From: Niallia sp. Man26
Lineage (GTDB): Bacteria > Bacillota > Bacilli > Bacillales > Cytobacillaceae
Assembly: GCF_022049065.2 (NCBI RefSeq)
Contig: NZ_CP095743.1
Coordinates: 2,743,001 to 2,807,000 of the forward strand
DNA length: 64,000 bases
Direction: 5' to 3'
Under the pieces are notes generated by a model, which saw nothing but the letters and a program-made list of their open reading frames with translations, had not been told where the DNA came from and made no database searches. The translations under genes were made by a program, and so were the position numbers. Position 1 is the first letter of the stretch. The number at the start of each line of letters is the position of its first letter. Positions 48,424-64,000 of this stretch are shown here, in pieces.

Positions 48424-48894
48424 TCAGTTTTTATTAGACATAATCAGACTCACTTTTAAGTCCTTATATTGAATCGGCTGTTCCTCGCCTTCACTTGTGC
48501 AAAGATTTCGTTTTTCCCCTTTAATGCACACCGCAATCGTTTCATTATTATTTATCGTCACATAGCTGTCGGCAGAGAGCGGGAGGGGATCATCCGTATC
48601 TGGATCATTAAATGCACTCATATAACCGTTCTCAACAAGCTCTTCGTACGTAATCCGATCATTTGCACCATGACCGCTTGTGGTAGCTTCCTTGATATAG
48701 AAGTCTGCTGCTTCCTTCATATTCCATGCATTAGCAACAAATGACTTGTCTCTCATATCATGGATTACCTTTATGACAGATGGGACTGCAATTGCCGCAA
48801 GGATACCTATAATGACAATTACTGCAAGAAGCTCTACAAGGGTCAATCCTCGTTCATTGAGTCTAGTATATAGCAATCTATTCGTTTTACTCAT
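48424..48894 (-). CDS. type IV minor pilin-like protein
   Basis: 156-residue prepilin: short basic leader ending at Gly16, then LTLVELLAVIVIIGILAAIAVPS, the N-methylation/hydrophobic helix with Glu5. The soluble domain carries a Cys pair (AVCIKGEKRNLC) that could form a disulfide. The ATG at 48894 overlaps the pilO stop (ATGAGTAA), which supports coupling. It is the last gene of the minus pil operon. Role in the fibre (minor pilin or alternative major pilin) unknown. Confidence 0.85.
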   Translation of the reverse strand: MSKTNRLLYTRLNERGLTLVELLAVIVIIGILAAIAVPSVIKVIHDMRDKSFVANAWNMKEAADFYIKEATTSGHGANDRITYEELVENGYMSAFNDPDTDDPLPLSADSYVTINNNETIAVCIKGEKRNLCTSEGEEQPIQYKDLKVSLIMSNKN

Positions 48895-49645
48895 CTTCCT
48901 CTGTAGACACCCCAGCAAATGGGTTCTTCCTGTCTGCTGAAGCAGGGCTTTCCATTGACGGCAAGTCATTGATCAAGTCTTCCAGCTCTGGATAGTAGTA
49001 AATGGATACAGTCATTTCAAATTCGATTTTCTGGTCATTGTCTTCCACTTCCATTACTTCCTTCGTTCCAGTAATTTTTAAGGAATCAATATCCATAATC
49101 CGTTTTGAGGACTGCAGCTCTTCCAGCAATTTCTCCAGGTCGAAATAGGTGTTAGCCTCTCCTAATATATTAATGGCTGTTTTCTTAATGCCATTTGGCA
49201 ACGTTGTTTCAGAGGCTGCAGCATCATTTTCTGATTCGTCACCTGCCTGTTTATTGGCATCATCAATAGCTTTATCAGCTGTTGTTAAATCTTCCTCTGT
49301 CACCGTTTCGTCTGAATCTGTACCATTCAGCTTTATTTCAATAAGATTCGTGTCGGAAATAATTTCTGCTTTTTCTATTTCCAGGAGTGCCTGTTCAAGC
49401 AGTCTTTTAACAGGAACCTGCTGCTGTAGCTGAACAGTGCTTGTTTTAGTGCTTTCTTTAGCTGCTTTAATTTTCGAATCAAGAATCGTGACCTGCTGCT
49501 CCACAAGCTGAAGCTCTGTCTCTTTTGTGTCCACCTGGTTAGATAGCGGCTGTAAGTATGCAAAATAAACATAAGCACCAGCACCTAAAATAAGCAAAGC
49601 AGAAAGCAGGAACAAAAACAGCGATCTGTTTTCACCTAATCTCAT
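48887..49645 (-). CDS. pilO: type IV pilus alignment protein PilO-like
   Basis: 252-residue bitopic protein: one N-terminal helix (about 10-30), a coiled coil (about 38-70), and a ferredoxin-like C-terminal region (about 165-235). In type IVa pili PilO pairs with PilN and links to PilM. It shows little sequence conservation, so the call rests on topology and its place after pilM-pilN. Overlaps pilN by 4 bp. Confidence 0.78.
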   Translation of the reverse strand: MRLGENRSLFLFLLSALLILGAGAYVYFAYLQPLSNQVDTKETELQLVEQQVTILDSKIKAAKESTKTSTVQLQQQVPVKRLLEQALLEIEKAEIISDTNLIEIKLNGTDSDETVTEEDLTTADKAIDDANKQAGDESENDAAASETTLPNGIKKTAINILGEANTYFDLEKLLEELQSSKRIMDIDSLKITGTKEVMEVEDNDQKIEFEMTVSIYYYPELEDLINDLPSMESPASADRKNPFAGVSTEEDE

Positions 49646-50277
49646 GGGGACTCCTCCCCTTCTTCATTCTTTGCTGCTGCCGTTAAACCAGCAGTTGTAA
49701 ACAATATTTCATAGGAAGCATAATATCTTGGTTCAATATCGCCTTCCTTCAGTGTTTCAATAGCCTCGTCTATCTCTTCACTCACTTTGCCTTCTAATAT
49801 ATCCGTAGATTTGCTGTCTACCAATATCGCTTCATCGACCCAGCTGTATTGCAGAATCGAATTCAAATAATACGCAGCATCACTTTTTGTATCGAACTGT
49901 ACTTTAAGCGTAACTTTTTGCTTTTCACTCACTTCCAGTTCTTGAATAAATCCTCTATTAGGCAGAATAGCTGTGAGCTGTTTCAAAAGGAAAACATTGT
50001 CCACTTTTTGTTCATTCGCCCAAGTGATGGCATTCTTCAAGTCCTTTGCAGAATCTGATTCTTGATAGTTTTTCAAGCTGGCCTCTGAAGACTTTACAAT
50101 ATTATTGGAAAGTACAAGGCTATCCTCAACCGAATTCAGCTTTTTCTTGTCATTGGTGTACTGCCAAAAGAACAAGCCTGCAAGCAGGGCAGCAAGAGCT
50201 GCTGCTGCAAGAACCCAAACAAGCATGGCTGTTTTCTTAGGCTCTTTTTTAGGAAGGAGGTTAATTTCTACAAGCAT
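49642..50277 (-). CDS. pilN: type IV pilus alignment protein PilN-like
   Basis: 211 residues: the conserved cytoplasmic N-terminal motif VEINLLPK (residues 3-10), which binds PilM, then one helix (about 20-40), a coiled coil and a ferredoxin-like domain. The gene starts 3 bp after pilM. The INLLP motif makes the assignment firm. Confidence 0.88.
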   Translation of the reverse strand: MLVEINLLPKKEPKKTAMLVWVLAAAALAALLAGLFFWQYTNDKKKLNSVEDSLVLSNNIVKSSEASLKNYQESDSAKDLKNAITWANEQKVDNVFLLKQLTAILPNRGFIQELEVSEKQKVTLKVQFDTKSDAAYYLNSILQYSWVDEAILVDSKSTDILEGKVSEEIDEAIETLKEGDIEPRYYASYEILFTTAGLTAAAKNEEGEESP

Positions 50278-50280
50278 GAC

Positions 50281-51261
50281 CTACACCTCTTTTAATCCTA
50301 AACCAATGTTGACATGTACGCTCGTTGGTATAGGCTCATCATTCAAACTCGGGCCAAAACCCTTCATCTGTTCTGCATTATCAAATCTTTCCTTAATTTG
50401 CTCAACAATTGCAGGCAGCCAAGGATGGTCTCCGGTAATCACTATTTTTTTTACTTGTCTATCTCCCTTGTTGAGAGTATAACGGTAAAAGCTCATTACT
50501 TTTTCTATTTCTTTATAGATATCGTCAAGGCCGTTCCAAACTTCCGCTTTATCTCCCGTAAATGTAAGTCCTTCTGATGCATTTTTCTGCACCCACTGCT
50601 CATTGTCTACTTCAATAATCAAATGGCGCATAAAAAGCGGATGATGATTTTCAAAAATGCTCACATTTACTGTCTTTAAATCCACTTCAATAATCATCAC
50701 CCCGTCATTGGACGGCGAGTTGCTTGTATGGTGATAATAACGATAAAGGGCAAGTGCGGAAATATCAGCAGCTGCTGGTTTCAGCTTCACTTCATCAAGA
50801 ATCTCGGACAGCTCTGCAATATTGTCTTCTGGTGCTGCAAACAGAATGATTTGTTGCTTATTTTTATCTTTTTCTGCTAACAGATGATAATCAAAAACAG
50901 GGTTTTCAAACGGCAAATGGATAGACGTCCCCAATTCCATGTATAAGTATCCTTTAATTTCATCAGGGGTTACATCTTCCGGAATGGAAATTTTTCGGAT
51001 AACCACAGATGAATCAGGAACAAGGAAGCGGACTTGTTTTTTGGCAATTTTCCATTCTTGAATACACTCTTCCAATATCATGGAGAAGGTTTGCAAATCC
51101 TGGATTGCACCATCTTGAATCAAGCCTGCCGGCAAGAAACGCTCACCCCAGCTTTGGACAGATGTATCATGGCCGTGCTTTATTTCCACATAGCGGATAC
51201 AATGGTCTTTCACTGTTAAGTTGACATATTTGCTTTTTCCTAAATTAAATCGTATAGCCAT
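50281..51261 (-). CDS. pilM: type IV pilus assembly protein PilM-like
   Basis: Actin-like cytoplasmic protein of 326 residues that binds the PilN N-terminus and helps dock the ATPases. FtsA/PilM fold traits: IPEDVTPDEIKGYLYMELG, a central phosphate-loop-like region VMIIEVDLKTVNVSIF, and KIVITGDHPWLP. ATG at 51261 follows AAGGAGCAGAGGT; twelve upstream codons are open but lack a site. It lies 11 bp after the prepilin peptidase gene. Confidence 0.86.
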   Translation of the reverse strand: MAIRFNLGKSKYVNLTVKDHCIRYVEIKHGHDTSVQSWGERFLPAGLIQDGAIQDLQTFSMILEECIQEWKIAKKQVRFLVPDSSVVIRKISIPEDVTPDEIKGYLYMELGTSIHLPFENPVFDYHLLAEKDKNKQQIILFAAPEDNIAELSEILDEVKLKPAAADISALALYRYYHHTSNSPSNDGVMIIEVDLKTVNVSIFENHHPLFMRHLIIEVDNEQWVQKNASEGLTFTGDKAEVWNGLDDIYKEIEKVMSFYRYTLNKGDRQVKKIVITGDHPWLPAIVEQIKERFDNAEQMKGFGPSLNDEPIPTSVHVNIGLGLKEV

Positions 51262-51272
51262 ACCTCTGCTCC

Positions 51273-52019
51273 TTAAAGAAATACATTTAAATACCAATTG
51301 ATTAAGTCATTGCCATAAAAATAACTCACAAGCGCACCAATCACGATAAACGGACCGAACGGAATCGGCTTGTTTTTTTTCACTTTACCTGCAGCCATGC
51401 CAATAAGGCCGCCTGCAGTTCCAAATATGGTGGAAAGGAAGAAGGTCAAAAGGACGAGCTTCATACCAAGCACCAATCCAATAACGGCAAACAGCTTTAT
51501 ATCTCCGCCTCCCATGCCGCCTTTTGAGACCACTGCAATCACATACAAAAGCACAAAACCGACAACTGCCCCAAGCAAGCTGTCCCACCAGGGATCCAAC
51601 TGAATAAAAATTCGTTCTCCTAACAGCAAGATGCCAAAAAACAGCAGCACCTTATCTGGAATAATCATATATTCTATATCAGAAACAGTGATGATCATCA
51701 ATAATGAGATGAACGTCCACGCTACAAACAGCTCTGCTTCCCAGCCAAGAATAACAGGGCATAAAACAAAAAGAACACCTGTCAAAAGCTCAAATATAGG
51801 ATATAAGGGGGAAATCGATGCTTTGCAGCACCTGCATTTCCCCCTTACGAACATATAGCTTAAAACAGGTATTAATTCTAGCGGTGTTAAAGTATGCCCG
51901 CAATTCGTACAATGTGATCTTGGCCTAACAATCGATTTCTGCAATGGAACCCTGAGCCCGACAACGTTATAAAAGGAGCCTAGTGTTATTCCGTATAGGA
52001 AGATTAGTAGGTAGATCAT
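51273..52019 (-). CDS. comC: prepilin peptidase (A24 family), ComC/PilD
   Basis: Membrane aspartyl peptidase that removes pilin leaders and N-methylates them. 248 residues, as in B. subtilis ComC. The N-terminal domain has the CxxC...CxxC zinc pairs (HCTNC and KCRCC, about 37-67). The catalytic Asp residues lie in TVSDIEYMIIPD and GGGDIKL. B. subtilis has comC alone after spoIIB; here it is inside a pilus operon and may serve both pilus and competence pseudopilins. Confidence 0.94.
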   Translation of the reverse strand: MIYLLIFLYGITLGSFYNVVGLRVPLQKSIVRPRSHCTNCGHTLTPLELIPVLSYMFVRGKCRCCKASISPLYPIFELLTGVLFVLCPVILGWEAELFVAWTFISLLMIITVSDIEYMIIPDKVLLFFGILLLGERIFIQLDPWWDSLLGAVVGFVLLYVIAVVSKGGMGGGDIKLFAVIGLVLGMKLVLLTFFLSTIFGTAGGLIGMAAGKVKKNKPIPFGPFIVIGALVSYFYGNDLINWYLNVFL

Positions 52020-52030
52020 ATTCTATATCC

Positions 52031-52477
52031 TTAACTAGCTGGAATAGCTGTGCTATTACCGCTAGTCGCTTTTTTAGCATCATTAATTTGTTTTAGAGTA
52101 GCATTCGTTATTGTAACAGTTACATTCCCTTTATTTCCTGTACCAGTGAACGTTAATGCACCATTTGCGCCAACAGTTACACTATATGCACCTGTTCCAG
52201 TTGTTTTAAATGTATCAACATTTTGAACATATGTTCCTAATTGCTCATTTGTTAAAGTTCCTGTTTGATAATCATTTGCAGAGATATAAGTCTGTGCACT
52301 ATTCAAAATCTGTACAGCATCTGCTTTAACAGCATCAAAACGAGATTTCTCAATAATATTCGCAATGCTAGGAATAGCAATCGCAGCAATAATACCTAAA
52401 ATAACGATAACAGCCAAAAGCTCAATTAGCGTAAGACCCTTTTCGTTTTTAATATGTTTTTTTAATAATTGACCCAT
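52031..52477 (-). CDS. pilA: type IV major pilin-like protein
   Basis: 148-residue prepilin: leader MGQLLKKHIKNEKG, cleavage after Gly14, mature N-terminus LTLIELLAVIVILGIIAAIAIPS with Glu5, then a helix and a Thr/Gly/Ala-rich beta domain without cysteines. Its placement between pilC and comC, a strong AGAGGAGC site and a separate promoter (about 52515-52541) suggest the major subunit. Confidence 0.88.
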   Translation of the reverse strand: MGQLLKKHIKNEKGLTLIELLAVIVILGIIAAIAIPSIANIIEKSRFDAVKADAVQILNSAQTYISANDYQTGTLTNEQLGTYVQNVDTFKTTGTGAYSVTVGANGALTFTGTGNKGNVTVTITNATLKQINDAKKATSGNSTAIPAS

Positions 52478-52514
52478 TTTTAGTTGCTCCTCTTTTAAAA
52501 AAGTTATTTATTTT

Positions 52515-52541
52515 GGTTGTGTACAACCTATTACTATTATA
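52515..52541 (-). promoter_or_regulatory. candidate promoter and small palindrome upstream of the major pilin gene
   Basis: On the minus strand a consensus -10 TATAAT (52541-52536) with no good -35, followed 7 bp downstream by GGTTGTGTACAACC (52515-52528), 6-bp arms around GT. The palindrome would lie near the transcript start, where it could act as an operator or 5' mRNA hairpin. Confidence 0.5.
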
Positions 52542-52595
52542 CTAGATAAATAGACTCATTCATACAGTTATTTTAAGGAAAATGTCCTATATTTT

Positions 52596-53801
52596 TTATT
52601 GAACGTGGTTGAATATTTCAAACATCGGCACCATGATGGATGTGACGATTGTGCCGACAATTCCGGCAAGGAGCACGATCATAATCGGTTCGATTAAGGA
52701 CTTCAGTCTGTCTGTGGCACTTTCGACTTCTCTTTCGTAAAAGTCAGCAACTTTTGAAAGCATCGCATCGAGTGAGCCTGTCTCTTCACCGATGGCAATC
52801 ATTTGGGTCACAAGGGGCGGGAACACCCAGTGTGCTTTCATCGGTGTTGTTAATGATTGACCTTGTTCTAGTGCGCTTCTTGATTTTATAAGCACCTTTG
52901 ACATCACTTCATTTTCAATGACGGTTTCGACAATCGCGATCGCCTGCAGAATCGGCACGGAACTGGAAAACAGCGAGCTTAATGTTCTTGTCATTCTTGC
53001 TAATGCTGCTTTTTGCAAAATTTTACCGAAAACAGGCAGCCGAAGCAGAAAATAATCTAAATAGTATTTTGAAGCTTTATTATTTCGTATCACAAGAATG
53101 CTGACAACAAATGCAATCATCAACAGTACAATCAGCCACCAGTATACTTGCATGAATTCACTAGCATTCAGTACAAATTGGGTGATTGCAGGCAATTCAC
53201 CGCCGAAATCCTTGAACATATCAACAAATGTCGGGACGATGCTTACGAGCAAAAAGATAACGACTATAATGGCAATAATAGCAATCGCGATTGGATAAGT
53301 AAGTGCCGAAATAATCTTTTGTTTCGTGAAATGCTGCTTCTCATAATGCACTGCCAGTCTTTCCAATGTCTCGTCCATGCTGCCGCTTGCTTCACCAGCA
53401 CGTATCATGTTGACAAACATGCTGGAGAACACTTTGCGATGCTTGCTGGCTGCTTGCGAGAGCGGATTTCCGTCACGCAAATCTTGTTCGACAGACAGCA
53501 ATGCTTTACGAAGGCCTTTGCTTTCTGTCTGCTGTGCAAGAATAGCTGTTGCTTCCACAACAGAAATACCTGCTTTCAGCAATGTGGCAAATTGACGTAA
53601 ATAAATAACAAAATCCTGCAGCTTAACCGGACTGCCTAGTGTGATTTCCTTTGTAAGCAGTGTTTCGGGAATCTCATTGATTTCCATGACTCTGATTCCT
53701 TTTTCCTTCAGCTGCAGCATGGCATCTCTTTTTGACTGTGCTGTAACAATGCCTGTTTTTTTACCTCTGCGGTCTCTTCCTTCATATTTATAACGAGCCA
53801 T
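52596..53801 (-). CDS. pilC: type IV pilus inner-membrane platform protein PilC
   Basis: 401-residue platform protein with two T2SSF domains (about 65-190 and 270-392) and three membrane helices (about 165-190, 215-238 and 370-395). MFVNMIRAGEASGSMDETLERLA and the matching IAIGEETGSLDAMLSKVADFYE are the paired family motifs. Begins inside the pilT stop region (14-bp overlap). Confidence 0.95.
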   Translation of the reverse strand: MARYKYEGRDRRGKKTGIVTAQSKRDAMLQLKEKGIRVMEINEIPETLLTKEITLGSPVKLQDFVIYLRQFATLLKAGISVVEATAILAQQTESKGLRKALLSVEQDLRDGNPLSQAASKHRKVFSSMFVNMIRAGEASGSMDETLERLAVHYEKQHFTKQKIISALTYPIAIAIIAIIVVIFLLVSIVPTFVDMFKDFGGELPAITQFVLNASEFMQVYWWLIVLLMIAFVVSILVIRNNKASKYYLDYFLLRLPVFGKILQKAALARMTRTLSSLFSSSVPILQAIAIVETVIENEVMSKVLIKSRSALEQGQSLTTPMKAHWVFPPLVTQMIAIGEETGSLDAMLSKVADFYEREVESATDRLKSLIEPIMIVLLAGIVGTIVTSIMVPMFEIFNHVQ

Positions 53802-54843
53802 TGCTTTGCTCCTTCTCTTGTAAATATGGAAGTGCAGCTTCTCTTAATACAGCTCCAGCCTGGACGAGCTCCTTCACATTGCTTTCTAATGTATGCATCC
53901 CAGCTGCTCTTGATGTCTGCATGATATTTTGAATTTGATGGATCTTTTCGTTGCGGATTAAATTCGCAACAGCTGCATTATTAATTAAGATTTCTGTTGC
54001 AGACACCCTGCCCGTCTTGTCTGGTGTTGGAAACAGCCTTTGGGACACGATGCTCACAAGCACAGATGCCAGCTGAATGCGGATTTGATCCTGCTGGGAC
54101 GGCGGAAACACATCAATAATCCGGTTGATTGTCGCCGGCGCACTAGACGTATGAAGCGTTCCGAGCACAAGATGGCCTGTTTCTGCTGCTGTAATTGCGG
54201 TTTGAATTGTTTCTAAATCACGCATCTCGCCGACTAGAATAACATCCGGGTCCTGTCTTAACGAAGCCCGCAGCCCATTGGCGAAATTCTTCGTATCAAA
54301 GCCGACCTCTCGCTGATCAATAATGCATTTACCATGCTTATGCAAGTATTCAATCGGATCTTCCAATGTGATAATATGCTTTCTCATCGTCTCGTTCATA
54401 TAGGAAATCATCGCAGCAAGTGTTGTTGATTTACCGCTTCCTGTCGGTCCTGTAACGAGTATTAATCCTTGCGGCTTTTCACTGATTTTTTTTAAGATTG
54501 GCGGCAGCTTCAAATCATCCAAATTGGGTATAGATGTTGGCACCACCCTGATTGCAAGAGCAACACACGCTCTTTGCTTATATGTGTTAACACGAAATCT
54601 GGAAACACCTTTTAGACTGTAGGAAAAGTCCAGCTCTCCTTTTTCCGTGAACACATCCCATAACTCCTTAGGAATCATCGCTTTTGCCATCGTTTCTGTA
54701 TCTGCAGGGGTTAAGCTTTCCTTGCCGTATCGTCTCAGCTCTCCGTTTATACGCATGACAGGAGGCACTCCGACTGTCAAATGGATGTCAGAAGCTTTAA
54801 GCTCAAAGCCGACCCGCAGCAAATGGTCGATATTGTTGTACAT
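53788..54843 (-). CDS. pilT: type IV pilus retraction ATPase PilT
   Basis: Hexameric secretion-type ATPase that retracts pili. 351 residues: PAS-like N-terminus with SDIHLTVGVPPVMRINGEL, Walker A GPTGSGKSTT (about 130-139), Asp box, Walker B ILVGEMRD, His box, and the PilT-specific NLIRNEKIHQI near the end. Its presence beside pilB implies fibres that retract, as in twitching or DNA uptake. Confidence 0.96.
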   Translation of the reverse strand: MYNNIDHLLRVGFELKASDIHLTVGVPPVMRINGELRRYGKESLTPADTETMAKAMIPKELWDVFTEKGELDFSYSLKGVSRFRVNTYKQRACVALAIRVVPTSIPNLDDLKLPPILKKISEKPQGLILVTGPTGSGKSTTLAAMISYMNETMRKHIITLEDPIEYLHKHGKCIIDQREVGFDTKNFANGLRASLRQDPDVILVGEMRDLETIQTAITAAETGHLVLGTLHTSSAPATINRIIDVFPPSQQDQIRIQLASVLVSIVSQRLFPTPDKTGRVSATEILINNAAVANLIRNEKIHQIQNIMQTSRAAGMHTLESNVKELVQAGAVLREAALPYLQEKEQSNGSL

Positions 54844-54854
54844 ATTAGCCCCTC

Positions 54855-56516
54855 CTAGTCAGGGATAGCTACACGAAGCACTTCTTCTGTTGTAGTAATT
54901 CCTTGTTTAACTTTCAAAAGACCGTCATCAATTAAGAAGATTGTTTTAGCTTTAATAGCAAGCTCCCGCAGCTTCGTGAAGGACTCGCCATTCATGATGA
55001 CACTTTTCATCTCATCATTGATAACTAACACCTCATGGATAGCAACACGGCCTTTATAGCCTGTCATGTTGCAGGAAGCACAGCCCTTCCCTCTTGCCAC
55101 CTTCTCGATGGACAACCCTCTTTTTGCGAAAATTTCTTTCTCTCGCGCCGAAGCAGGATGAACCTCTCCACAGTCTCTGCACACTTTTCTCACAAGCCGT
55201 TGTGCGACAATTCCGCTTAAGGAGGAAGCAACTAAAAATGGCTCCACTCCCATATCAAGCAATCGTGTAATAGAGCCCAAAGAATCATTCGTATGAAGAG
55301 TGCTAAGAACAAGATGTCCTGTCAACGACGCTCTGACAGCAACCTCGGCTGTTTTCTTATCTCGTATCTCCCCGACCATGATGACATTCGGGTCTTGTCT
55401 CAGGATAGCGCGCAATCCTGCTGCAAATGTCATGCCGACATTTCCGTTTACTTGAATTTGGTTAATGCCCTCTAATTGATACTCAACAGGGTCCTCGACC
55501 GTAATGATATTAACCTCTTCACTGTTTAAGCGATTAAGTGCAGCATATAAAGTGGAAGATTTACCTGAACCAGTCGGGCCTGTTATTAAAATAATCCCTG
55601 TCGGTTTTTCAATCATGTCAACGAAGCGGCCAAGATTAACTTTATTAAAGCCAAGCTTATTAAGGTCATTTAAGGTACTCCCTAAATCAAGAAGACGCAT
55701 TACAACCTTTTCACCATATACTGTCGGCAATGTTGATACACGCAAATCAATCGGATGGAAATCCAGATTAATCTTAATTCTCCCATCCTGGGGAATGCGA
55801 TGCTCTGTTATATCTAAATTGGCCATGATTTTCAGCCTGGCAATCAATACACTTTGCATATGCTTTGGCAGGACCCGTTCGACACGAAGTACGCCATCAA
55901 TACGGTAGCGGATAACCACCTTCGTTTCCTGCGGGTCAATATGAATATCACTTGCTTTTAATGTTGCTGCATTCGTCAATATTTGGTTAACAAGTCTTAC
56001 GATTGGAGAATCTTGCTCAATCATCCCATCGCTCTGGCTTTCACCAATCTCATTCGGATCTGACAGCAATTCTTCAAAGCCTTCGTCCATATCATAATAT
56101 TTATTGATTGCCCGCAGGATATCATCTTTAGAAGCAATAGCTGTTTCTATTTGAAAGCCAGTAGCCAAGCGCAAATCATCAATTGTATAGAAGTCCATTG
56201 GATCAGCCATTGCGACATACAGTTTTTCTCCATCTTTCTTGAGCGGAATAATCAACTGTCTTTTCGCTGTTTCCTTGGAAACAATCGTAAATAATTTAGG
56301 GTCAAAAGGATAGCGGTACAAGCTTACATGGGGAATGCCTAACTGCAATTCCAATACTTCAATAAGCTGCTGCTCTGTAATAAATCCCTTTTGAAGCAAA
56401 CTGTCGCCAAGCCTTTGATCCGGATGCTTATCTTGCAGCGCCTGCTGCAGCTGTTCTTCTGTCAGCAAACCAGCTTCCACCAACAAATCACCAAGTCGTT
56501 TTCGAATTTGTTTCAT
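54855..56516 (-). CDS. pilB: type IV pilus extension ATPase PilB with MshEN-type N-terminus
   Basis: Assembly ATPase of 553 residues. The N-terminus (1-150) is a T2SSE_N/MshEN domain with two repeats of the RLGxxLxxxGxxxxxQLxxxL pattern (starting at Arg7 and Arg35), known to bind c-di-GMP in MshE-type ATPases. Then Walker A GPTGSGKSS, Walker B IMVGEIRD, and the tetracysteine zinc site (CRDC...CASC, about 460-500). ATG is preceded by AAGGGAGG. Starts 21 bp after the VanW-like gene. Confidence 0.95.
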   Translation of the reverse strand: MKQIRKRLGDLLVEAGLLTEEQLQQALQDKHPDQRLGDSLLQKGFITEQQLIEVLELQLGIPHVSLYRYPFDPKLFTIVSKETAKRQLIIPLKKDGEKLYVAMADPMDFYTIDDLRLATGFQIETAIASKDDILRAINKYYDMDEGFEELLSDPNEIGESQSDGMIEQDSPIVRLVNQILTNAATLKASDIHIDPQETKVVIRYRIDGVLRVERVLPKHMQSVLIARLKIMANLDITEHRIPQDGRIKINLDFHPIDLRVSTLPTVYGEKVVMRLLDLGSTLNDLNKLGFNKVNLGRFVDMIEKPTGIILITGPTGSGKSSTLYAALNRLNSEEVNIITVEDPVEYQLEGINQIQVNGNVGMTFAAGLRAILRQDPNVIMVGEIRDKKTAEVAVRASLTGHLVLSTLHTNDSLGSITRLLDMGVEPFLVASSLSGIVAQRLVRKVCRDCGEVHPASAREKEIFAKRGLSIEKVARGKGCASCNMTGYKGRVAIHEVLVINDEMKSVIMNGESFTKLRELAIKAKTIFLIDDGLLKVKQGITTTEEVLRVAIPD

Positions 56517-56536
56517 CCTTGATCCCTCCCTTAAAA

Positions 56537-57904
56537 TTATTTAGTGCTTTCCGCTGTTTCTTCCGTACTTGCAGCAGTCTTGTCCGCTTCTGTGCTGTCA
56601 TTTGTTTTGCTATCCGTTTCCGTTGTTTCCGTATCTTTTGTATTGCTTGAGTCGTCTTCAGAAGCTTCTGTATCTGTCTTTGCTTCACTATTATCGCTAT
56701 CTGTGTCTTCTGCAGCACTGTTATCAGCGTCGATTGTAACATCCTCTTCAACAAGCAGGCTGTGTGCAATGACTTTATTCACTGGTGGATAAAAGTCTTC
56801 ACTGATTAGTTCTTTTTTTACAACTTCCCCGTTCTCATCCTTCGACTCTCTGTATACCTTGATCAACTGTCCGGCGGAGCCTTCTTCTACAATTCTCGTT
56901 TCATTTAAGCTCAGACTTGGATCAAACTGAAGAACTGTTTTTGGTGAAAATGTTTCTTTATCAGACAAAATCACTTTATAGTCATATAGCAAACTAGCTC
57001 CATTTAAACTTACATACAGTTTGTTATTAACCATTTGGAAGGACATAGTAAAGGTTTGTTCATTAGGATTATTGAACCGGTAATCCATTTTTTGATTCTT
57101 ATTTATTCTTGCTTCATAGCCGATATCAGCAAAGTCTGGCAACGTATTGCTTGTATACCTTTCTGAAACAGTGAAGTTCGTTGGCAGGATTGCTGAATGA
57201 ACAGCAGTAGCCACAATGCTTAGCACCTTATCTGAGTAAGCTTCCCCATTATTTTCGTTCATCCATTCAAGCAAAGAAATGGTTGCTTGCGGTTTAATCG
57301 TTAAAGTCGGGAATTGCTTTACCCATTTTTTCACACTGTTTTTCTGGTCGTCCGTATCCACTGTCGCCTCTGCTAATTTAGCGTTCTCTTCTTTTTTGCT
57401 TATTTTGTATTCATTCAAGTCGATTAATTGATTGCCAGATTGTAAGCTTGCTGCCATTCCTACTAAACTATCATTCAACTTAGACAAATAAAAAGCATTA
57501 TCTGTCGTCAGCTCGGCTGATACAGATGTCAGGAAGCTTTCCATTTCCTGCAAGTCAAGGGACACAAGAACATTATTGTTCTCCCCTTGTTTAATGGAAG
57601 CAACAGAGTCCTTCAATTGAAATGCAAACTGGCTTAGATCAAAACTCACTGTCTTTTCTTTGAATTTCAATTGAATATTTGTGTTCTTCTCCCATTCTGT
57701 ATGCTTTTCGCTTACTGCGCTTAAGGCCTCCTGTTGATTCATCCCAGAAACATCGATGCCGGCAATTGTTGTATGCTCCTCATATCCGTCATTACTCTGA
57801 AAAAAATTACTGTATGCCTTCGCCCCAAATTGAGAAAAGCTAAAAATAAAGGAAGTCGCGAACAAAATTGCGGCAAATAGCTTTGCAGCTTGGATGTTTT
57901 TCAT
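56537..57904 (-). CDS. VanW/G5-like extracytoplasmic protein of the pilus operon
   Basis: 455 residues: N-terminal helix or signal (about 8-30), a PG-binding_4-like region (AGIDVSGMNQQEALSAVSEK), then a VanW-like segment whose late part (YEARINKNQKMDYRFNN, KLYVSLNG) fits the family, while the usual GGG-[IV]-CQ core is absent. A G5-like stretch (about 325-385) and a 70-residue Ser/Thr/Asp/Glu tail follow. Extracellular, membrane-anchored or wall-associated. Placed between the PRC-barrel gene and pilB, so a role in passing or anchoring the pilus in the wall is inferred. Confidence 0.7.
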   Translation of the reverse strand: MKNIQAAKLFAAILFATSFIFSFSQFGAKAYSNFFQSNDGYEEHTTIAGIDVSGMNQQEALSAVSEKHTEWEKNTNIQLKFKEKTVSFDLSQFAFQLKDSVASIKQGENNNVLVSLDLQEMESFLTSVSAELTTDNAFYLSKLNDSLVGMAASLQSGNQLIDLNEYKISKKEENAKLAEATVDTDDQKNSVKKWVKQFPTLTIKPQATISLLEWMNENNGEAYSDKVLSIVATAVHSAILPTNFTVSERYTSNTLPDFADIGYEARINKNQKMDYRFNNPNEQTFTMSFQMVNNKLYVSLNGASLLYDYKVILSDKETFSPKTVLQFDPSLSLNETRIVEEGSAGQLIKVYRESKDENGEVVKKELISEDFYPPVNKVIAHSLLVEEDVTIDADNSAAEDTDSDNSEAKTDTEASEDDSSNTKDTETTETDSKTNDSTEADKTAASTEETAESTK

Positions 57905-57925
57905 GCAGTGTTTGCTCCTTTGTTA

Positions 57926-58702
57926 TTAAGCTTCCACATTCATTGAAAGGTCAATTACTACACTTGGTCCTGCTAGCTGGGCATTTTCAATATCCGCTAA
58001 TGTCAGAACAGTTCCTTTTGTTAGCAGTAGTTGACCTTCATTTGTGTATATATCATTAACTACTTTTTTATTCAGCAATAATTCTACTTGCTTTTCTTTT
58101 AATGCTTGCAGGCGTTCTGCTTCCTCTGCGTGATTAATGGCAGGAGCAGACAGCTCTTCTAATAATTCTTCCGTCTCCTCAGCTGTATCTAGTGCTGAAG
58201 CTTCTTCTTTTGCACCAAGCTCTCTAAGGCTGGCAGCTGTTTCTTCTTTAACAACAATGATGTCTTTTCCGTAAGTCAACACAAATTCGGCATCAATCAG
58301 CACTTCTTTGTTTTTCACATTAGCTTGAAGTGCCGTGATTGCACCGCCATTTTCGTCATCAACGACAAATTCGGAAACTTTGCCGATAAGTTCCCCTTTT
58401 CTAGTAATAACATTTGCATCGATAAGACCGATTTTTTTATTTACTAATTCACTGGCAATCGGAATTTCGTTCAAATCCATGATGGCATGGGCATTTTCAA
58501 TCGTTACTGCATACTCGCCGACACCGACCACTTTTTTAAACGGAATAGCAAAATTGTTGTCCTGCCATTCTTCTTGTTCGATCGTCAAGAAATCTACCGT
58601 ACCCTTTTCTGGGTTAATAATAAGTGATTGAACCTTTCCTTCCTGCTGTCCGTTTGAAATGCTAATGATTGGCAATCCTTTAATTTGTGTACTGTTTTTC
58701 AT
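57926..58702 (-). CDS. PRC-barrel domain protein of the pilus operon
   Basis: 258 residues, no signal or membrane helix. Two PRC-barrel domains (about 6-85 and 90-160, with GKVQSLIINPEKGTVDFLTI and GKVSEFVVDDENGGAITALQ), a Glu-rich helical linker (165-205) and a C-terminal beta domain (KVVNDIYTNEGQLLLTKGTVLT). PRC-barrels mediate protein contacts in ribosome maturation, photosynthetic centres and sporulation (YlmC/YrrD). A link to pili is by operon position only. Confidence 0.75.
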   Translation of the reverse strand: MKNSTQIKGLPIISISNGQQEGKVQSLIINPEKGTVDFLTIEQEEWQDNNFAIPFKKVVGVGEYAVTIENAHAIMDLNEIPIASELVNKKIGLIDANVITRKGELIGKVSEFVVDDENGGAITALQANVKNKEVLIDAEFVLTYGKDIIVVKEETAASLRELGAKEEASALDTAEETEELLEELSAPAINHAEEAERLQALKEKQVELLLNKKVVNDIYTNEGQLLLTKGTVLTLADIENAQLAGPSVVIDLSMNVEA

Positions 58703-58728
58703 AAAATATCCTCACCTTATTCACATAT

Positions 58729-60030
58729 TTAATTATTTAAGTAATTCTTCTCCATGAAGCTAAGCTGTTCTAAGATGATTGGTTCAAGTTGGTATTTAGT
58801 TTGCAATTGAACAAACAATGACCGCAGCTTGGAACTTTCGTTATGCTGAACATAATGCTCGATCAGTAAATTAGACAGAGCAAAGTATTCATGTAATGGC
58901 AATGTCTCTGTTAGGCATTTCAGCAGGATTGCTTCATATTCCTCTCTGCTGAGGCTGTTCTTCATCAGGTCAAGCTGCATTAACGTATTATTGATAACCT
59001 GATGCGCCACTCTGTTGTCTTTAACTGTCACTTCGTCTTCTATGACGTCGACTTCTTCCATACTTTCTTCTTTAATATTTTCTTCTTCGCTGATTTTTTC
59101 TGTGCTTAGTTCTAATAACGGTTCTTTATGGGCTAGAATGTCTGGCAGCAAATCTTCTGCTGCAGTGTCGATTTCTTCTCGTTCCAACAAGTCAGGGTTT
59201 ATAACAAAATCATCCACTTCTTGTTCTTTTAAGCTCTCATCATTAGCAGCCGGTGTTACGGCATCTTGGTCATCCTCTACACTTGCCGCTGCTTGATCTG
59301 CATCTTCTAGTAAAGACATATCAAAATCAGCAAACTCGGCTGCTGTTTTGCTCTGCTTATTTTCTTGCTGTGTTTCATTTTCATCAGAGTTCATCAGCAT
59401 TTCCAGCTCCTCCATATAAGAAAAGCTTTCTGCTGAATGTTCTGCTACCGCATTTTCAGTTGGCGATGTGAGAACTTCCATTGCTGGAATTTCCTCTGCA
59501 TCCTCTAATTCCCCTATGATTATTTCGTCCGCAACAGCTGAATTGTTAACATCTTCTTTCGCAGAAAAATCACTTTTCATAAATTCTTCCTCGACAGAAA
59601 CTGCCGGAATAATAATATCTTCCTCATCATTTGCTTTTTCAGCTGTTAAAACTGGCTCGACTTCTTTAACTTCAGCTGCTGCAGGCAGCTTTTCGCTTTT
59701 GATATCCCATGTGCTATTTCGCTGTGTCACCTGCTGAGCTGTAGCCATTTCCCAGTCATAATCTTCTTCATCCATTTCTTCCTCTGCTTCAAACATCATT
59801 TCTGGGGATTTTTTAATGAAGATATAAGTAAATATAATTAAAAATAAAAGCATTAAAAGCACTGTTTGCCACCATGCAAACAATCGCTGTGTCAATAACC
59901 CGCATACAGATGTGAGCAGTGCAGCACCAATAATCCACCATTTGCCCTTTTTCGTAAACCCTAATGGGAGAAAATACACAATTGGCACAATCAAAATTAG
60001 GGAGAAAAGAGCTAGAACATACGATATCAT
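58729..60030 (-). CDS. acidic membrane protein heading the pilus operon, unknown family
   Basis: 433 residues. Three N-terminal helices (about 3-23, 30-48 and 52-72) are followed by a very acidic, low-complexity cytoplasmic region (80-335) and a helical C-terminal domain (about 340-433: NTLMQLDLMKNSLSREEYEAILLK...). I do not recognise the family. ATG at 60030 has a consensus AAGGAGGTG; 25 upstream codons are open but unsupported. First gene of the minus pil operon, 26 bp before the PRC-barrel gene. It could be a scaffold for the cytoplasmic ATPases. Confidence 0.7.
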   Translation of the reverse strand: MISYVLALFSLILIVPIVYFLPLGFTKKGKWWIIGAALLTSVCGLLTQRLFAWWQTVLLMLLFLIIFTYIFIKKSPEMMFEAEEEMDEEDYDWEMATAQQVTQRNSTWDIKSEKLPAAAEVKEVEPVLTAEKANDEEDIIIPAVSVEEEFMKSDFSAKEDVNNSAVADEIIIGELEDAEEIPAMEVLTSPTENAVAEHSAESFSYMEELEMLMNSDENETQQENKQSKTAAEFADFDMSLLEDADQAAASVEDDQDAVTPAANDESLKEQEVDDFVINPDLLEREEIDTAAEDLLPDILAHKEPLLELSTEKISEEENIKEESMEEVDVIEDEVTVKDNRVAHQVINNTLMQLDLMKNSLSREEYEAILLKCLTETLPLHEYFALSNLLIEHYVQHNESSKLRSLFVQLQTKYQLEPIILEQLSFMEKNYLNN

Positions 60031-60120
60031 GGCACACCTCCTTATAACGATATCTAATTCCCTAAAAAAACGACATTTTTTTCTATTTTTCCAATACTTT
60101 AGCACTCTTTTTCGACTTTT

Positions 60121-60154
60121 TTAGTCAATTTACGACTAATAAATATTGTATAAT
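60121..60154 (+). promoter_or_regulatory. candidate promoter of the minor pilin operon with inverted repeat
   Basis: Consensus -10 TATAAT at 60149-60154, 32 bp before the first minor pilin start. An inverted repeat TTAGTC-N7-GACTAA (60121-60139) covers the -35 position, where no good hexamer exists; it could bind an activator or repressor. The divergent operon starts at 60030. Confidence 0.45.
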
Positions 60155-60185
60155 AAGATTAGTAATTTTGAAAGCAGGGGAATAT

Positions 60186-60677
60186 ATGAAATTTTTTAAA
60201 GTTCTATCTAGTAATAAAGGCTTAACTTTGATTGAGGTTCTCGTTTCCCTTACTATACTCAGTCTAATTTTATTAGGTATAATGAACTTTTTTAATCAAG
60301 CTTATTCTTTTACAAACTCGAACCAAAAAAAGACTGCTGCCATTAATGTTGCTAGAAACGCTTTAACGTATATGGAACAGTCTTCAGGCAATAACTCGTT
60401 TATTGCGCTAAGAGACAGGCTGAAAAAAAATCCGGCCACAGAAGGTACATTAAGAATTTGTGATAATTCCTATCAAGTATTTTGGAATGATGAGATACAG
60501 GGCTGTGAGCCAATCACCATAAATAATGTAGCCTACAATGTTACTATTGTTCCTTCGCTGGATGAAAACAATACAGCTTATTTCATTCCCTTAACTGTTG
60601 AAGTGGCTTGGACGGTGAAGCAGCATGACTACACAACTTCAATGGAAGGGGCAATTAAAAGTGAAGATCTTAGATGA
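60186..60677 (+). CDS. type IV minor pilin-like protein (PilV-like)
   Basis: 163-residue prepilin: leader MKFFKVLSSNKG, cleavage after Gly12, mature LTLIEVLVSLTILSLILLGI with Glu5. The soluble domain has a Cys pair (RICDNS and GCEPI). ATG at 60186 follows AGGGG. First of three plus-strand pilin-like genes, divergent from the assembly operon; this resembles clostridial pilV-pilU-pilK sets. Confidence 0.85.
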   Translation: MKFFKVLSSNKGLTLIEVLVSLTILSLILLGIMNFFNQAYSFTNSNQKKTAAINVARNALTYMEQSSGNNSFIALRDRLKKNPATEGTLRICDNSYQVFWNDEIQGCEPITINNVAYNVTIVPSLDENNTAYFIPLTVEVAWTVKQHDYTTSMEGAIKSEDLR

Positions 60678-61239
60678 AAAAGGACTGACCTTGGTTGAGG
60701 TTCTTGCAGTGCTTGCGATAACAGCTATCGTGCTGCCTGTTATATATGGTGTCTTTCATACAGGTATTAATCTGTACAATAAGATACAAGTAGAAGGGCA
60801 GCTCCGTGATGATGCTGATTATGCGGTGTCTGTGATGATGAATTCCTTTAACAGCATTCCGTTTGATTATGTCACACAAGATGGCGACAAAATCGTCCTT
60901 GTTAATTCAGAGCAGACAGCTATTAACGAAAATGAAAAAGAGAATTCAACCTTTTACTCCTACAGTAAAGAAGAAATTGATGAAGAGAACACAGAAACAC
61001 GATCGATTGAATTTGTAGAAAAAACAGTAGGTGGCAAAGAAATTCAGTCTGTTTCCATTGATGGAAATACACTGGAAGGAAACGGCGATTACAGTGCATC
61101 CACTATTAATTTAATGTGCAGTGATACCGATAGAAATGATAACAACAAATGTTTACACGGCATTATTGCAGTGGATTTCACCATTCAAAATGCCAGAATA
61201 GAACGGCCACTAACATTAGAAAGTCGATTTGGCTTTTAA
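60661..61239 (+). CDS. type IV minor pilin-like protein (PilW/PilU-like)
   Basis: 192-residue prepilin: leader MKILDEKG, cleavage after Gly8, mature LTLVEVLAVLAITAIVLPVI with Glu5. A Cys pair is in LMCSDTDRNDNNKCLHG. Start is GTG at 60661, 9 nt after GGAAGGGG, and overlaps the previous gene by 17 bp; a longer frame from 60625 would put extra residues before a normal-length leader. Probably part of the tip complex. Confidence 0.82.
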   Translation: MKILDEKGLTLVEVLAVLAITAIVLPVIYGVFHTGINLYNKIQVEGQLRDDADYAVSVMMNSFNSIPFDYVTQDGDKIVLVNSEQTAINENEKENSTFYSYSKEEIDEENTETRSIEFVEKTVGGKEIQSVSIDGNTLEGNGDYSASTINLMCSDTDRNDNNKCLHGIIAVDFTIQNARIERPLTLESRFGF

Positions 61240-61249
61240 GGAGTATTAT

Positions 61250-63298
61250 ATGAAGAAACTGAATGAACAAGGAAATGCCCTCCTTACAGTCCTTTTAGTG
61301 TCGATTGTATTCACGACGATTGGTCTTGCCATTGTGGCATCTTCCATCAGTGGAGCAAAACGAGTGGAAACAAGGGAATCGGACATCACCGTAACGTTTG
61401 AGAGCAAAAAGGTGCTCGAGGAAATTACATCTGAAATTGCGGCAAGGCTGAATACATTAAATTTAGATATGGTGAAAAGAACAGATGGCACTTACCGAGT
61501 AAATGCATCATTTGAAGGAAATCTGCAAAATAGAGTGCTCGTTCCCAGTCTTGACCATATCCTTGAAAATACCAATTACGATGACTCTATTAAATGTTTA
61601 AGCATACAAGACTTAAGCAATACCAACGACATTCTACCTATCCAGCCTACTTCGGCACAAAACCAATGTGAGGCTGCAACGTTGGAAAATACAAGCTCTT
61701 ATTCCATTAACAGAGATGATGATTACACAAGAGTGCTGGAGATTGTGCTTGTAACGAACAACCCGAATGAAAATGAGGGAGATGTCACGCGTACGTTGAA
61801 GAAAAAGATCATTCTGTCCCCACTTCCAAGCTTCCTTAAGTATGCTGCAGGGTCAGCTTCAGAAGATGATAAAGGCGGACTTTTCTTGAATGGTTCTTCT
61901 AATATTAACGGAAATGCCTTTGCTAATTATCTGACGATATCAGATGATGCAAAATATCAAGACCGGCAAGGAGGCGCAAGAACAATACATTCTCTCCCGC
62001 CATCAGTTAATGGTGACTTCTACAGCACAGGAGCGCATATACTTCCGCTACTGAAGGAAAGCAATTTCTATCAGGAAGATGTACCTGATCTTAAGCATGA
62101 TAGTCAATTTATCAATATTGAGTTTGATAAAACACTCAGAGACCGAATTAACACAATCCTTGGAAATAACAACTTAACAGCAACTGTTTCAACAACAGAG
62201 GATATAAAGTATCTTCCAAGTGTATTAAAGCAGGAAATAAGCTCTAAGGTGACTACAAATGTTACCGAAAGTGAGATTGCAAAGACAGAAACACAGCAAG
62301 TCCCTCAATCTGTGCTAGGAGACTCCCTTGAGGAGCTGGAGGGCGGTTTCACGATTGACAGTAAAACTGGTCCAATTCAATTTAATAATACAGTACAAGT
62401 TAATGGAGATGTTGTTATAAACAGCAGCAACTATCCAATTACATTTAACAAAGATCTTATCGTTAATGGTGATTTATATGTTGTCAGCAATAAGGATATA
62501 TCCCTTCAAGCTGTCAAGACAGCGGGCAATCTTCATCTTATTAACTTTGACGGCAATGTCACAGTTGCGCAAGACATGGTGGCTGCCGGAAAAATCGTAA
62601 TAGAGTCCAGCGCTGACAAAACGGTTAACACAGCAAACGGAGTGAAGCTGAATGGCGATATCTTCTCAGGAACAACACTCAGCATTCGCCCCCTTAATAC
62701 AGAAATGGATTTAAACAGTAATATTATCAGTCTTGGTTCTTTTACAGTCAAGGGCGATGAAACAGGGGAATCTGAACAAGAAAATGACATTGTGCGCTTT
62801 AATTCTGTTGTTTATTCGAATGCAGACAGCTTTATCTCCAACGTTAATATTATTGGCCTGCCATACACAAATAATTTAGGTAACGCAACGGAAGGGCAGC
62901 TGATACTGCTTTCAAAAGACAGGCTTACGATTACAAGGATGAATGAATTTAACAATTATGCTGACATGAATGAGCCGAGCTATCCGTACTTGCCAATCGA
63001 GGAAATGAATATCAAGCCATTACAAGCATTTTTCTATACAGAAAGGGATGCAGAATTATATGGAGTAGGTTCGTTGTTTTATATTAAAGGAGGCATATTT
63101 GCCAGAGGTTCTCTTGAAATCAATGCGATCAGAGCGAACCGCTCATTTAAAGCAATCGAAAATGTTCCTGGGTCAACAGAAGGTTACATGTCCAGATTCA
63201 TTGTTGATTATGACCAAGACGTATTATTGCAAGGAATAGATGCATTGCCGATAGTTGACCGCTTGCAGATTATTCCTGATGATTTTGTTATTCAATAA
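61250..63298 (+). CDS. large pilin-like tip protein (GspK/PilK/PilX-like) lacking Glu5
   Basis: 682 residues. Leader MKKLNEQG, then NALLTVLLVSIVFTTIGLAIVASS: a prepilin-type helix with Thr at position +5 in place of Glu, as in GspK-type tip pseudopilins. A helical region, a Cys pair (KCLSIQ...NQCEA), then from about 385 to 600 a repetitive beta-strand pattern (VNGDVVINSS, VNGDLYVVSN, AGNLHLINFDG) like a beta-helix or bactofilin fold. It ends in IVDRLQIIPDDF. AAGGAG precedes the ATG. Likely sits at the pilus tip; adhesin function is inferred. Confidence 0.8.
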   Translation: MKKLNEQGNALLTVLLVSIVFTTIGLAIVASSISGAKRVETRESDITVTFESKKVLEEITSEIAARLNTLNLDMVKRTDGTYRVNASFEGNLQNRVLVPSLDHILENTNYDDSIKCLSIQDLSNTNDILPIQPTSAQNQCEAATLENTSSYSINRDDDYTRVLEIVLVTNNPNENEGDVTRTLKKKIILSPLPSFLKYAAGSASEDDKGGLFLNGSSNINGNAFANYLTISDDAKYQDRQGGARTIHSLPPSVNGDFYSTGAHILPLLKESNFYQEDVPDLKHDSQFINIEFDKTLRDRINTILGNNNLTATVSTTEDIKYLPSVLKQEISSKVTTNVTESEIAKTETQQVPQSVLGDSLEELEGGFTIDSKTGPIQFNNTVQVNGDVVINSSNYPITFNKDLIVNGDLYVVSNKDISLQAVKTAGNLHLINFDGNVTVAQDMVAAGKIVIESSADKTVNTANGVKLNGDIFSGTTLSIRPLNTEMDLNSNIISLGSFTVKGDETGESEQENDIVRFNSVVYSNADSFISNVNIIGLPYTNNLGNATEGQLILLSKDRLTITRMNEFNNYADMNEPSYPYLPIEEMNIKPLQAFFYTERDAELYGVGSLFYIKGGIFARGSLEINAIRANRSFKAIENVPGSTEGYMSRFIVDYDQDVLLQGIDALPIVDRLQIIPDDFVIQ

Positions 63299-63304: not shown

Positions 63305-63332
63305 AAGGGTGCCCTATCTGGCACCCTTTTTA
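63305..63332 (+). terminator. terminator of the minor pilin operon
   Basis: Stem AAGGGTGCC/GGCACCCTT (63305-63313 with 63320-63328), 6-nt loop, followed by T on the plus strand. Confidence 0.9.
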
Positions 63333-63376: not shown

Positions 63377-64000
63377 TTACCATTTACCGTCCGTGCTGTT
63401 TCCAGAACCGCCGTTATCACCATCGTCTGTACTAGTATCCTCCACAACTTCAATCAAGGTGGATGCACTTGGACTTGTGCTATCTCTTTGTTCTTCTGCA
63501 GTTGCTGTCACATTTGAATAACCGACTTCTTTCCCTTTCAAGTAGTATTCGCCATCTTTATGAATGACTTCTACTTTATCTGGCTGATCTGCTACAACAC
63601 TAATAATATCTTTGTCTGTTGCGTTGCTTGGGTTGAAGATTAAGTTATCTGTTACTGGCAGCTCTTCCCCAACCTCCACTTGGTAGGCTGGTTTCGTGAA
63701 TTTAATTTCATCAAGGGCAATATACGGGTCCGTAACTGTCACCGGAATTCTTACCTCAAGATTAGAACCGTCTTTTGTCTTCACAATCAGCTCTGTTTCC
63801 CCTGCCTTATTTCCATAAATGCTGTACTTTCCATCAAGGATACTAGCTATTGATGTGTCAGCAAGTTTAATATCCAAGTCTTTGTTTGTGGCATTTTCCG
63901 GGTTAAAGGTAACAGTGAAGTCAGTCGTGCTTCCTACGATAATATTTATAGGGTTAGGCGTAACCGAAATAGATTGTACTTTATCTTGTATTGTAATTGT
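63377..64000 (-). CDS. bacterial Ig-like (Big_2) repeat protein, 5' end outside window
   Basis: 207 C-terminal residues; the frame is open to the window edge. Two Ig-like units: one starting VQSISVTPNPINIIVGST with FNPENATNKD, the next with IKFTKPAYQVEVGEELPV and FNPSNATDKD, each ending in a strand rich in Val/Thr. The C-terminus is acidic and Gly/Ser-rich (DDGDNGGSGN, ending GKW) with no LPXTG sortase motif. Such repeats occur in secreted adhesins and wall proteins. It is convergent with the tip pilin gene; partnership with the pilus is only positional. Confidence 0.75.
   Translation of the reverse strand, partial: TITIQDKVQSISVTPNPINIIVGSTTDFTVTFNPENATNKDLDIKLADTSIASILDGKYSIYGNKAGETELIVKTKDGSNLEVRIPVTVTDPYIALDEIKFTKPAYQVEVGEELPVTDNLIFNPSNATDKDIISVVADQPDKVEVIHKDGEYYLKGKEVGYSNVTATAEEQRDSTSPSASTLIEVVEDTSTDDGDNGGSGNSTDGKW

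Follow-up and report, generated by a model that had tools for sequence, protein, structure and literature searches.

An apparently intact, retractile-type type IVa pilus locus in Niallia sp. Man26, and comC of the Bacillales read as the survivor of its repeated loss

Type IV pilus (T4P) genes of Bacillales and other endospore formers have been described in several earlier works. Imam et al. (2011) reported pil operons in Bacillus sp. NRRL B-14911, two Geobacillus and one Exiguobacterium, and stated that a single com operon occurs in all Bacillales examined, together with pilD/comC, which need not be part of that operon (PMC3244431, accessible part of the paper). The models of Denise et al. (2019) allowed shared peptidases (PMC6668835, available excerpts), and T4P genes of an endospore former have already been deleted and tested (PMC9765702, available portion). 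Here, we analyze a stretch of 64,000 nucleotides from Niallia sp. Man26 (contig NZ_CP095743.1; hereafter, the window), in which positions 48,424-63,298, as read from the sequence, comprise the complete monoderm type IVa pilus (T4aP) gene set in two divergent operons. We consider it highly probable, as the best explanation of the data taken as a whole, that this is a retractile T4aP locus that is old at its chromosomal slot and was lost many times, with pilD being kept.

The pil operon of Bacillus infantis (NRRL B-14911) is of the same kind, and a B. infantis strain in our comparison (L016) has the same gene order; in its accessible text, the earlier account is silent on the folC-spoIIB position, on the tip operon and on repeated loss that leaves comC (PMC3244431). 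The T4P island of P. thiaminolyticus Mbale likewise comes from an endospore former and encodes PilB with MshEN domains, PilT, PilC and PilM/N/O, but lies on a predicted mobile element of 12-14 kb, whereas the Niallia locus is found at the folC-spoIIB slot (PMC9765702, available portion). A mobile-element origin at the present locus was rejected, as this slot is conserved across families. ComC of B. subtilis, which serves the Com pilus, belongs to the same peptidase family as PilD, and in B. subtilis, included as a named control, the peptidase was present and PilT was not found. We take the B. subtilis gene to be a lone comC between folC and spoIIB, that is, in the same slot as Niallia pilD. 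A preliminary description of the window had placed the pilus locus at the comC position and had pointed out that B. subtilis has only comC there. The placement is confirmed by synteny, with folC beyond the window edge and spoIIB-maf-radC-mreB after the pilus operon; as for the comparison, the slot stands, but the direction changes, as repeated loss seems to have given rise to the comC-only loci.

Every named gene between 48,424 and 63,298 is an open frame, which rules out a frameshift artefact in the window, and the order and strands are those given in the preliminary description; together with the Pfam, NCBIfam and motif matches, this bears out its claim of a complete, divergent two-operon locus. 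The minus-strand run is orfX, PRC-barrel, VanW-G5, pilB, pilT, pilC, pilA, pilD, pilM, pilN, pilO, and prepilin 2; the divergent plus-strand run is pilV-like, pilW-like, and tip protein. The extension ATPase PilB (54,855-56,516) matched Pfam T2SSE (E 6.6e-137) and MshEN (E 2.9e-22), and its two MshEN cyclic di-GMP (c-di-GMP) motifs scored 59.7 bits against a cut-off of 38 in model NF053729; the two repeats also fit the MshEN consensus, and the NF053729 match is separately above its cut-off. PilB remained below the type IV equivalog cut-off in NCBIfam (618.8 vs. 675.65). The retraction ATPase PilT (53,788-54,843) scored 486 bits with TIGR01420 (cut-off 319.1), and both it and PilB retain intact Walker A, Walker B and His-box motifs, in agreement with the earlier claim on their Walker motifs. 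The platform protein PilC (52,596-53,801) matched Pfam T2SSF (E 8e-62), and pilA (52,031-52,477), likely the major pilin, carries the KG/LTLIE site and matched Pfam N_methyl (E 1.1e-07). The prepilin peptidase gene pilD/comC (51,273-52,019), the sole A24_N match of the genome, encodes both A24 domains (Pfam A24_N_bact and Peptidase_A24) and two CxxC pairs; the stretch with the first catalytic Asp reads SDIEYMIIPD by eye, and the pattern used in the motif check gave no match there.

The remaining assembly genes were compared with 74 related loci obtained by scanning named genomes with PilC, a sample that selects for PilC. PilM (50,281-51,297; the real start is probably further in) matched Pfam PilM_2 (E 1.4e-22) and scored 89.6 bits with TIGR01175, below the cut-off of 133; it was found in 71/74 loci. 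The pilN-like gene (49,642-50,277) is below the Pfam cut-off (PilN, E 0.015), and its assignment rests on position and on conservation in 71/74 loci, while the pilO-like product (48,887-49,645; 68/74) was matched by the Pfam T2SSM (E 3.9e-05) and PilN (E 6.6e-05) models and not by the PilO model. The last gene of the operon (48,424-48,894) encodes a second prepilin with a class III RG/LTLVE cleavage site (Pfam N_methyl E 4.8e-07; TIGR02532 above the cut-off; 36/74 loci by BLAST), and class III prepilin N-termini are supported by Pfam, NCBIfam and motif checks. One locus, then, contains an extension ATPase, platform, prepilin peptidase and class III pilins, a dedicated retraction ATPase, PilT, and a PilM/N/O alignment complex, in which PilM is recognized by Pfam and PilN and PilO by weaker model matches, position and conservation. 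Resting on this assembly set and the intact motor motifs, the assignment to an apparently intact, retractile T4aP type is supported. The presence of PilT, and the lack of any secretin family among the scanned proteins of the locus, to which the secretin search was confined, rule out a type II secretion system. Identity with the Com (ComG) pilus was also rejected: the motor scored 271.2 against a ComGA cut-off of 300, and an above-cut-off ComGA is located at G000:C1:2611443.

Three members of the minus-strand operon had not been named in the preliminary description. These are (i) a VanW-G5 protein with a hydrophobic N-terminal segment (56,537-57,904; Pfam G5 E 1.5e-10, VanW E 9.5e-07; 67/74 related loci); (ii) a PRC-barrel protein (57,926-58,702; Pfam PRC E 3.4e-16; 46/74); and (iii) orfX (58,729-60,030; 50/74), an unassigned membrane protein with N-terminal membrane segments, an acidic middle part and a conserved C-terminus, for which no Pfam family was found at E 0.1 and the homologue matches in related loci are concentrated at the N- and C-terminal ends. 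The VanW-G5 protein is a candidate factor for passage through, or anchoring in, the cell wall; no work joining VanW, the G5 domain and type IV pili was found in the literature searched, which left out most subscription papers. Judging from the sequence, the first minus-strand gene more likely starts at ATG 60,030, preceded by AGGAGG, and the first plus-strand gene at ATG 60,186, so that the operons are 155 bp apart.

The locus is ordinary in its family and is not special to this genome. PilT was detected in 153 of the 183 family genomes (E <= 1e-100) and in 83 of 120 genomes drawn from the order (E <= 1e-90), 82 of these 83 having it no more than 10 kb from PilD, whereas the A24_N domain was found in 182/183 and 119/120 genomes, respectively, always in a single copy except for two in G231. 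The same gene order was found in relatives, as the preliminary description had proposed to search for; given these frequencies and the earlier reports of pil operons (PMC3244431, accessible part), the locus is not rare. The view of a little-studied group in the preliminary description is supported. Among the 69 scan loci with pilB, pilT, pilC and pilD, spoIIB lies downstream in 63 and maf or radC in 64, and overall, 119 of 126 full loci have pilD placed between pilC and pilM. The genome studied here (G000) comprises 5.71 Mb in 6 contigs. By PilC, the nearest named relative is Niallia taxi (97%), and several other locus proteins are only 57-84% alike, which places the genome in a Niallia near N. 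taxi.

To describe the slot in other genomes, we used pilD-centred regions of at most 20 kb from 40 mixed-state family genomes, 13 PilT-negative family genomes and 40 order genomes. A locus was called lost if the hidden Markov model coverage on open frames was below 0.3 for pilB and pilT and below 0.7 for pilC. The mixed set contained 32 full, 5 lost and 3 partial loci; all 13 PilT-negative loci were lost; and the order set contained 25 full, 14 lost and 1 partial. The lost loci mostly retain the neighbours: 28 of 32 are preceded by folC and followed by spoIIB or maf/radC. Other pil genes, fragmentary or whole, were present in 17/32 lost loci (4/5, 9/13 and 4/14, counted from maps), a count that excludes a pilB piece of L216 away from the slot and in which the calls for L151, L156 and L157 depend on a prepilin match with a coverage of just 26-36%. 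These remnants differ in extent. In L154 and L203, pilB and pilT are gone and pilM/N/O are whole (only 2/33 loci are so), and in L108, L135 and L226, pilB and pilT are gone and pilM/N/O are partly broken, which suggests that the motor block was lost first in some lineages. Stubs only were found in L109 (pilT, pilC), L150, L158 and L073/L149 (in L073, pieces of pilC, pilA, pilM and pilO), and a Niallia locus (L160, genome G167) has pilD and only small remains of pilM, of pilO and of the vWA gene described below. Besides pilD, L129 and L224 have no pil gene other than a prepilin-like (pilA) match between folC and pilD, for which a motif search for an orphan prepilin in these two loci gave no match; in L143, L148, L152, L212 and others, pilD is the only pil gene. 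Among the 30 PilT-negative family genomes, the 19 loci examined were 18 lost and that of G156 (L137), which is frameshifted. The frames of L133 and L137 are split, including mreB (in L137: pilD, pilT and mreB), and these splits look like read errors, which is the likely cause in L137.

Several loci showed other arrangements. In G219 (L210), PilD is alone at the comC slot, and PilT and a PilB-like match lie elsewhere, as a second or moved T4P locus. In L202 and L216, pilD is outside the folC-spoIIB slot, with the pilB-like piece of L216 near it, and in L129 (1754-4785), radC matches occur in three pieces separated by large, insertion-like gaps.

For the direction of change, we considered outgroups and trees. 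Outside the Bacillaceae, the genes after the pilus locus are spoIIB-maf-radC-mreB in Aneurinibacillus (L066) and maf-radC-mreB in Brevibacillus (L069), and this occurrence at the same slot suggests loss. A species-proxy tree was built from MreB, RadC and Maf for the 86 rows (59 full, 27 lost) that had two or three of the markers, out of 107 selected; the trees of this selection omit the partial loci L133, L137 and L142 as well as L149, which shares its genome with L073. This tree requires 17 state changes, at least 14 of which are forced by branches at >= 95; shuffling of the states gave a mean of 23.2, with 1 of 500 shuffles as low as 17. The PilD tree of the 107-row selection has 20 state changes. 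In an earlier PilD tree of 110 rows, there were 6 changes for 6 lost rows, equal to the shuffled-label expectation; there, L109 grouped with L110 at 100, L073 fell in a 7-row set at 99, and L108 in a 4-row set at 98. Repeated loss is the simpler reading because the remnants, the outgroups and the slot are taken together.

In the Bacillales, comC is best read as a survivor of an ancestral pilus locus, probably kept for the Com pilus. ComGA was detected at E <= 1e-60 in 31/31 genomes, namely, that of the window plus 30 of the 32 with a lost locus. The ratio of nonsynonymous to synonymous substitution rates (dN/dS) of pilD in three lost/full pairs was 0.10-0.15, a pairwise value that averages both lineages; this is similar to maf (0.14-0.19) and above mreB (0.004-0.029). 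The common slot, the operon remnants and a distribution shaped by loss were all found in the sampled loci, and the B. subtilis comC region lies outside this sample. We regard this evolutionary reading as well supported by the sequence comparisons; a reading of comC as a pilus relict was not encountered in the literature searched, which lacked most subscription papers.

The plus-strand operon encodes the putative tip. It starts with two minor prepilins, a pilV-like one with a probable GspI-like role (60,186-60,677; Pfam N_methyl E 7.8e-07) and a pilW-like one with a probable GspJ-like role (60,625-61,239; Pfam N_methyl E 4.8e-05), followed by the tip protein (61,250-63,298), which has a prepilin-like N-terminus without Glu5 and, as predicted, a pilin-like head and a beta-solenoid. 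Pilus tip complexes consist of minor pilins capped by a subunit without Glu5 (PMC10191384, accessible part). The Niallia protein has T at position +5, and Glu was found at +5 in 0/50 ungapped rows; a tip complex of this kind may form. The tip alignment (A1) contains 51 of 64 tip matches, selected by us. In the structure model, the protein resembles ComZ of Thermus thermophilus and tapirins, being a cap pilin that lacks Glu5 and bears a beta-solenoid, a ComZ/tapirin-like predicted fold. Residues 43-682 of the model aligned with ComZ (6qvi_B) over 325 residues, covering the pilin head and the solenoid; ComZ comes from a diderm host and has no sequence match to the Niallia protein, and a root-mean-square deviation of 9.9 indicates that the domains are set differently, the likeness being one of predicted fold. 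The solenoid also matches the C-terminal domains of Caldicellulosiruptor tapirins (4wa0, 6n2b, 6n2c; one entry is titled possible adhesin), again for that domain only and with no sequence match. Tapirins bind cellulose. A profile search of the PDB with the tip alignment gave no match. Tip operons run in the same direction as the assembly operon in L027, L031, L033, L037 and L054, and tip-operon genes were undetected in a few loci, e.g., L050 and L051.

A gene for a secreted vWA-Big_2 protein of 946 aa adjoins the tip operon on the minus strand; its 3' part is at 63,377-64,000, and the remainder is past the window edge (L002:4378-7218). The vWA alignment (A2) contains 41 of 61 vWA matches, selected by us. 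The protein has a Sec-type signal by eye, and its Foldseek list includes SpaC, PitA, Mfa5, GBS104 and RrgA, together with nuclear-pore, cadherin, S-layer and complement proteins. We find it likely, from this resemblance to pilus-tip adhesins, that the linked vWA protein is an accessory tip adhesin. PilY1 is defined by a vWA domain and a C-terminal beta-propeller, and identity with PilY1 was rejected: Pfam (E 0.01, cut-off met) found vWA and Big_2 only and no propeller family, although a diverged propeller could escape Pfam. In comparison with PilY1/PilC1 and the S. sanguinis tip proteins PilB/PilC, the Niallia protein has a Sec-type rather than a prepilin signal. In L017, L024, L044, L047, L048, L049, L053, L072, L074 and L076, an ankyrin-repeat gene convergent to the tip operon is in the place of the vWA gene.

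Putative transcription signals were found next to the operons. Terminator-like hairpins, which are consensus matches only, end the assembly operon (minus strand, 48,405-48,379, with a T run) and the tip operon (plus strand, 63,305-63,328); it should be noted that the region contains 26 hairpins versus 13.8 in shuffles, so that any single hairpin is weak evidence. Before the tip operon lies a TATTGTATAAT block, the TATAAT of which is at 60,149-60,154 on the plus strand; of 59 regions upstream of minus-oriented pilV genes, 49 carry the block with no more than one mismatch, compared to a mean of 1.4 in letter shuffles. The sequence TTTTGAAA is found 3' of the block at near-fixed spacing, the two together lying at 60,138-60,175 in the window, and a clear -35 element is absent. 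No TATTGTATAAT block was found in the co-directional tip operons (at most 5 cases). The sigma-70 promoter scan was uninformative (39 found vs. 40.4 expected), and a palindrome in the divergent promoter region, TTAGTC-N7-GACTAA, occurs only in the window and L003 among 50 compared regions. The Rfam gathering search of the window found no riboswitch at the pilus locus; its matches were a T-box leader (6455-6688) and an L21 ribosomal leader (36,202-36,284), both on the minus strand. A GAF-GGDEF diguanylate cyclase is encoded between folC and the pilus locus (L002:7441-9165).

The proposed function can be outlined as follows. Binding of c-di-GMP at the MshEN domains of PilB would promote pilus extension, PilT would retract the pilus, PilM/N/O and PilC would form the base, and the VanW-G5 protein may aid passage through the cell wall. 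The second operon would provide the tip, in which the two minor pilins carry the Glu5-less cap whose beta-solenoid would touch a surface polymer or DNA, and the neighbouring vWA protein would serve as an accessory adhesin. PilD would also process prepilins for the Com pilus, the motor gene of which is elsewhere in the genome; as this pilus would have no other peptidase to rely on, pilD would be retained. The whole locus would be old at its slot and lost many times, the lone comC between folC and spoIIB being the survivor.

Several observations weigh against this explanation or limit it. The genome-wide peptidase counts, which escape the circularity of regions fetched around pilD and containing it by construction, score the A24_N domain and not an intact gene; G015 and G234 have neither a PilT nor an A24_N match, and in G219, PilT is on a different contig from PilD. 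In 7/126 full loci, mostly of Jeotgalibacillus, pilD is elsewhere than between pilC and pilM, and spoIIB, maf or radC were not found downstream in another count of 7/126 (L034, L056, L058, L062, L144, L206 and L207; the stretch of L207 ends early and has mreB). No remnant was recognized in 15 of the 32 lost loci, where loss is deduced from position alone, and the locus comparison covers 19 of the 30 PilT-negative family genomes. L142 (G086) is an otherwise whole locus with pilD in two pieces, which may reflect a read error or a real loss of its only peptidase. Both outgroups come from the PilC-selecting scan. The species-proxy tree is a quick one, with support from the Shimodaira-Hasegawa-like approximate likelihood ratio test only, long end branches for L208, L210 (both lost), L069 and L200, and doubtful joins flagged at long branches, L209 and L214-L211; in the earlier, 110-row PilD tree, L129 is without a supported neighbour set, and three queried rows were not displayed. 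ComGA is partial and below the cut-off in 3/31 genomes (G035, G047 and G225), where the Com pilus may be failing. The folC-side diguanylate cyclase lends no support to a dedicated local c-di-GMP circuit, as its gene is present in 12/20 full versus 12/28 lost loci. Other beta-helices score equal to or higher than ComZ in the comparison with the tip model.

Parsimony counts are blind to gain versus loss, and on these counts alone comC could be the older resident, around which T4P operons were inserted later, several times; the T4P cluster on a mobile element in Paenibacillus thiaminolyticus is in line with such insertions (PMC9765702, available portion). However, insertion does not fit the pil gene pieces or whole copies in 17 of the 32 motor-less loci, the position of pilD between pilC and pilM in nearly all full loci, the identical downstream neighbours in Aneurinibacillus and Brevibacillus, or the well-supported grouping of PilD of L109, L073 and L108, though not of L129, with T4P-bearing neighbours, and we consider it very improbable. 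Only marginally less improbable is a cryptic locus, with intact genes that are unexpressed or used only in a narrow condition: the lack of a clear -35 element at the TATTGTATAAT block suggests the need for an activator, and the locus is often lost, but all genes are open, the block is kept in most upstream regions, and PilT is kept in most family genomes.

The intact pilus might mainly take up DNA, beside or instead of the Com pilus, with the solenoid cap acting as a ComZ-like receptor. A tip location has been argued for ComZ, which binds DNA (PMC6561018, accessible part), the tip model aligns with it over both the head and the solenoid, and the peptidase is common to the pilus and Com; on the other hand, the genome has a separate ComGA, the solenoid matches tapirins too, and the adjoining vWA protein resembles pilus adhesins. 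DNA uptake as the main role is possible, though rather unlikely. In its most specific form, our explanation holds that comC is the last gene of a T4aP locus dismantled in parallel, probably at least 14 times in the sample, its survival being forced by the Com pilus, and that the tip encoded by the intact loci is of an undescribed monoderm kind, with a ComZ/tapirin-like solenoid cap and a secreted vWA adhesin in the part of PilY1; we lean slightly toward this combined claim.

If this is true, a retractile pilus is present in the majority of the close relatives of B. subtilis in the order, B. subtilis is an exception that lost it, and the location of comC away from comG is explained. The natural decay series would show which part of a machine persists when another machine depends on that part, and the two candidate tip proteins are open to study of adhesion or DNA binding.

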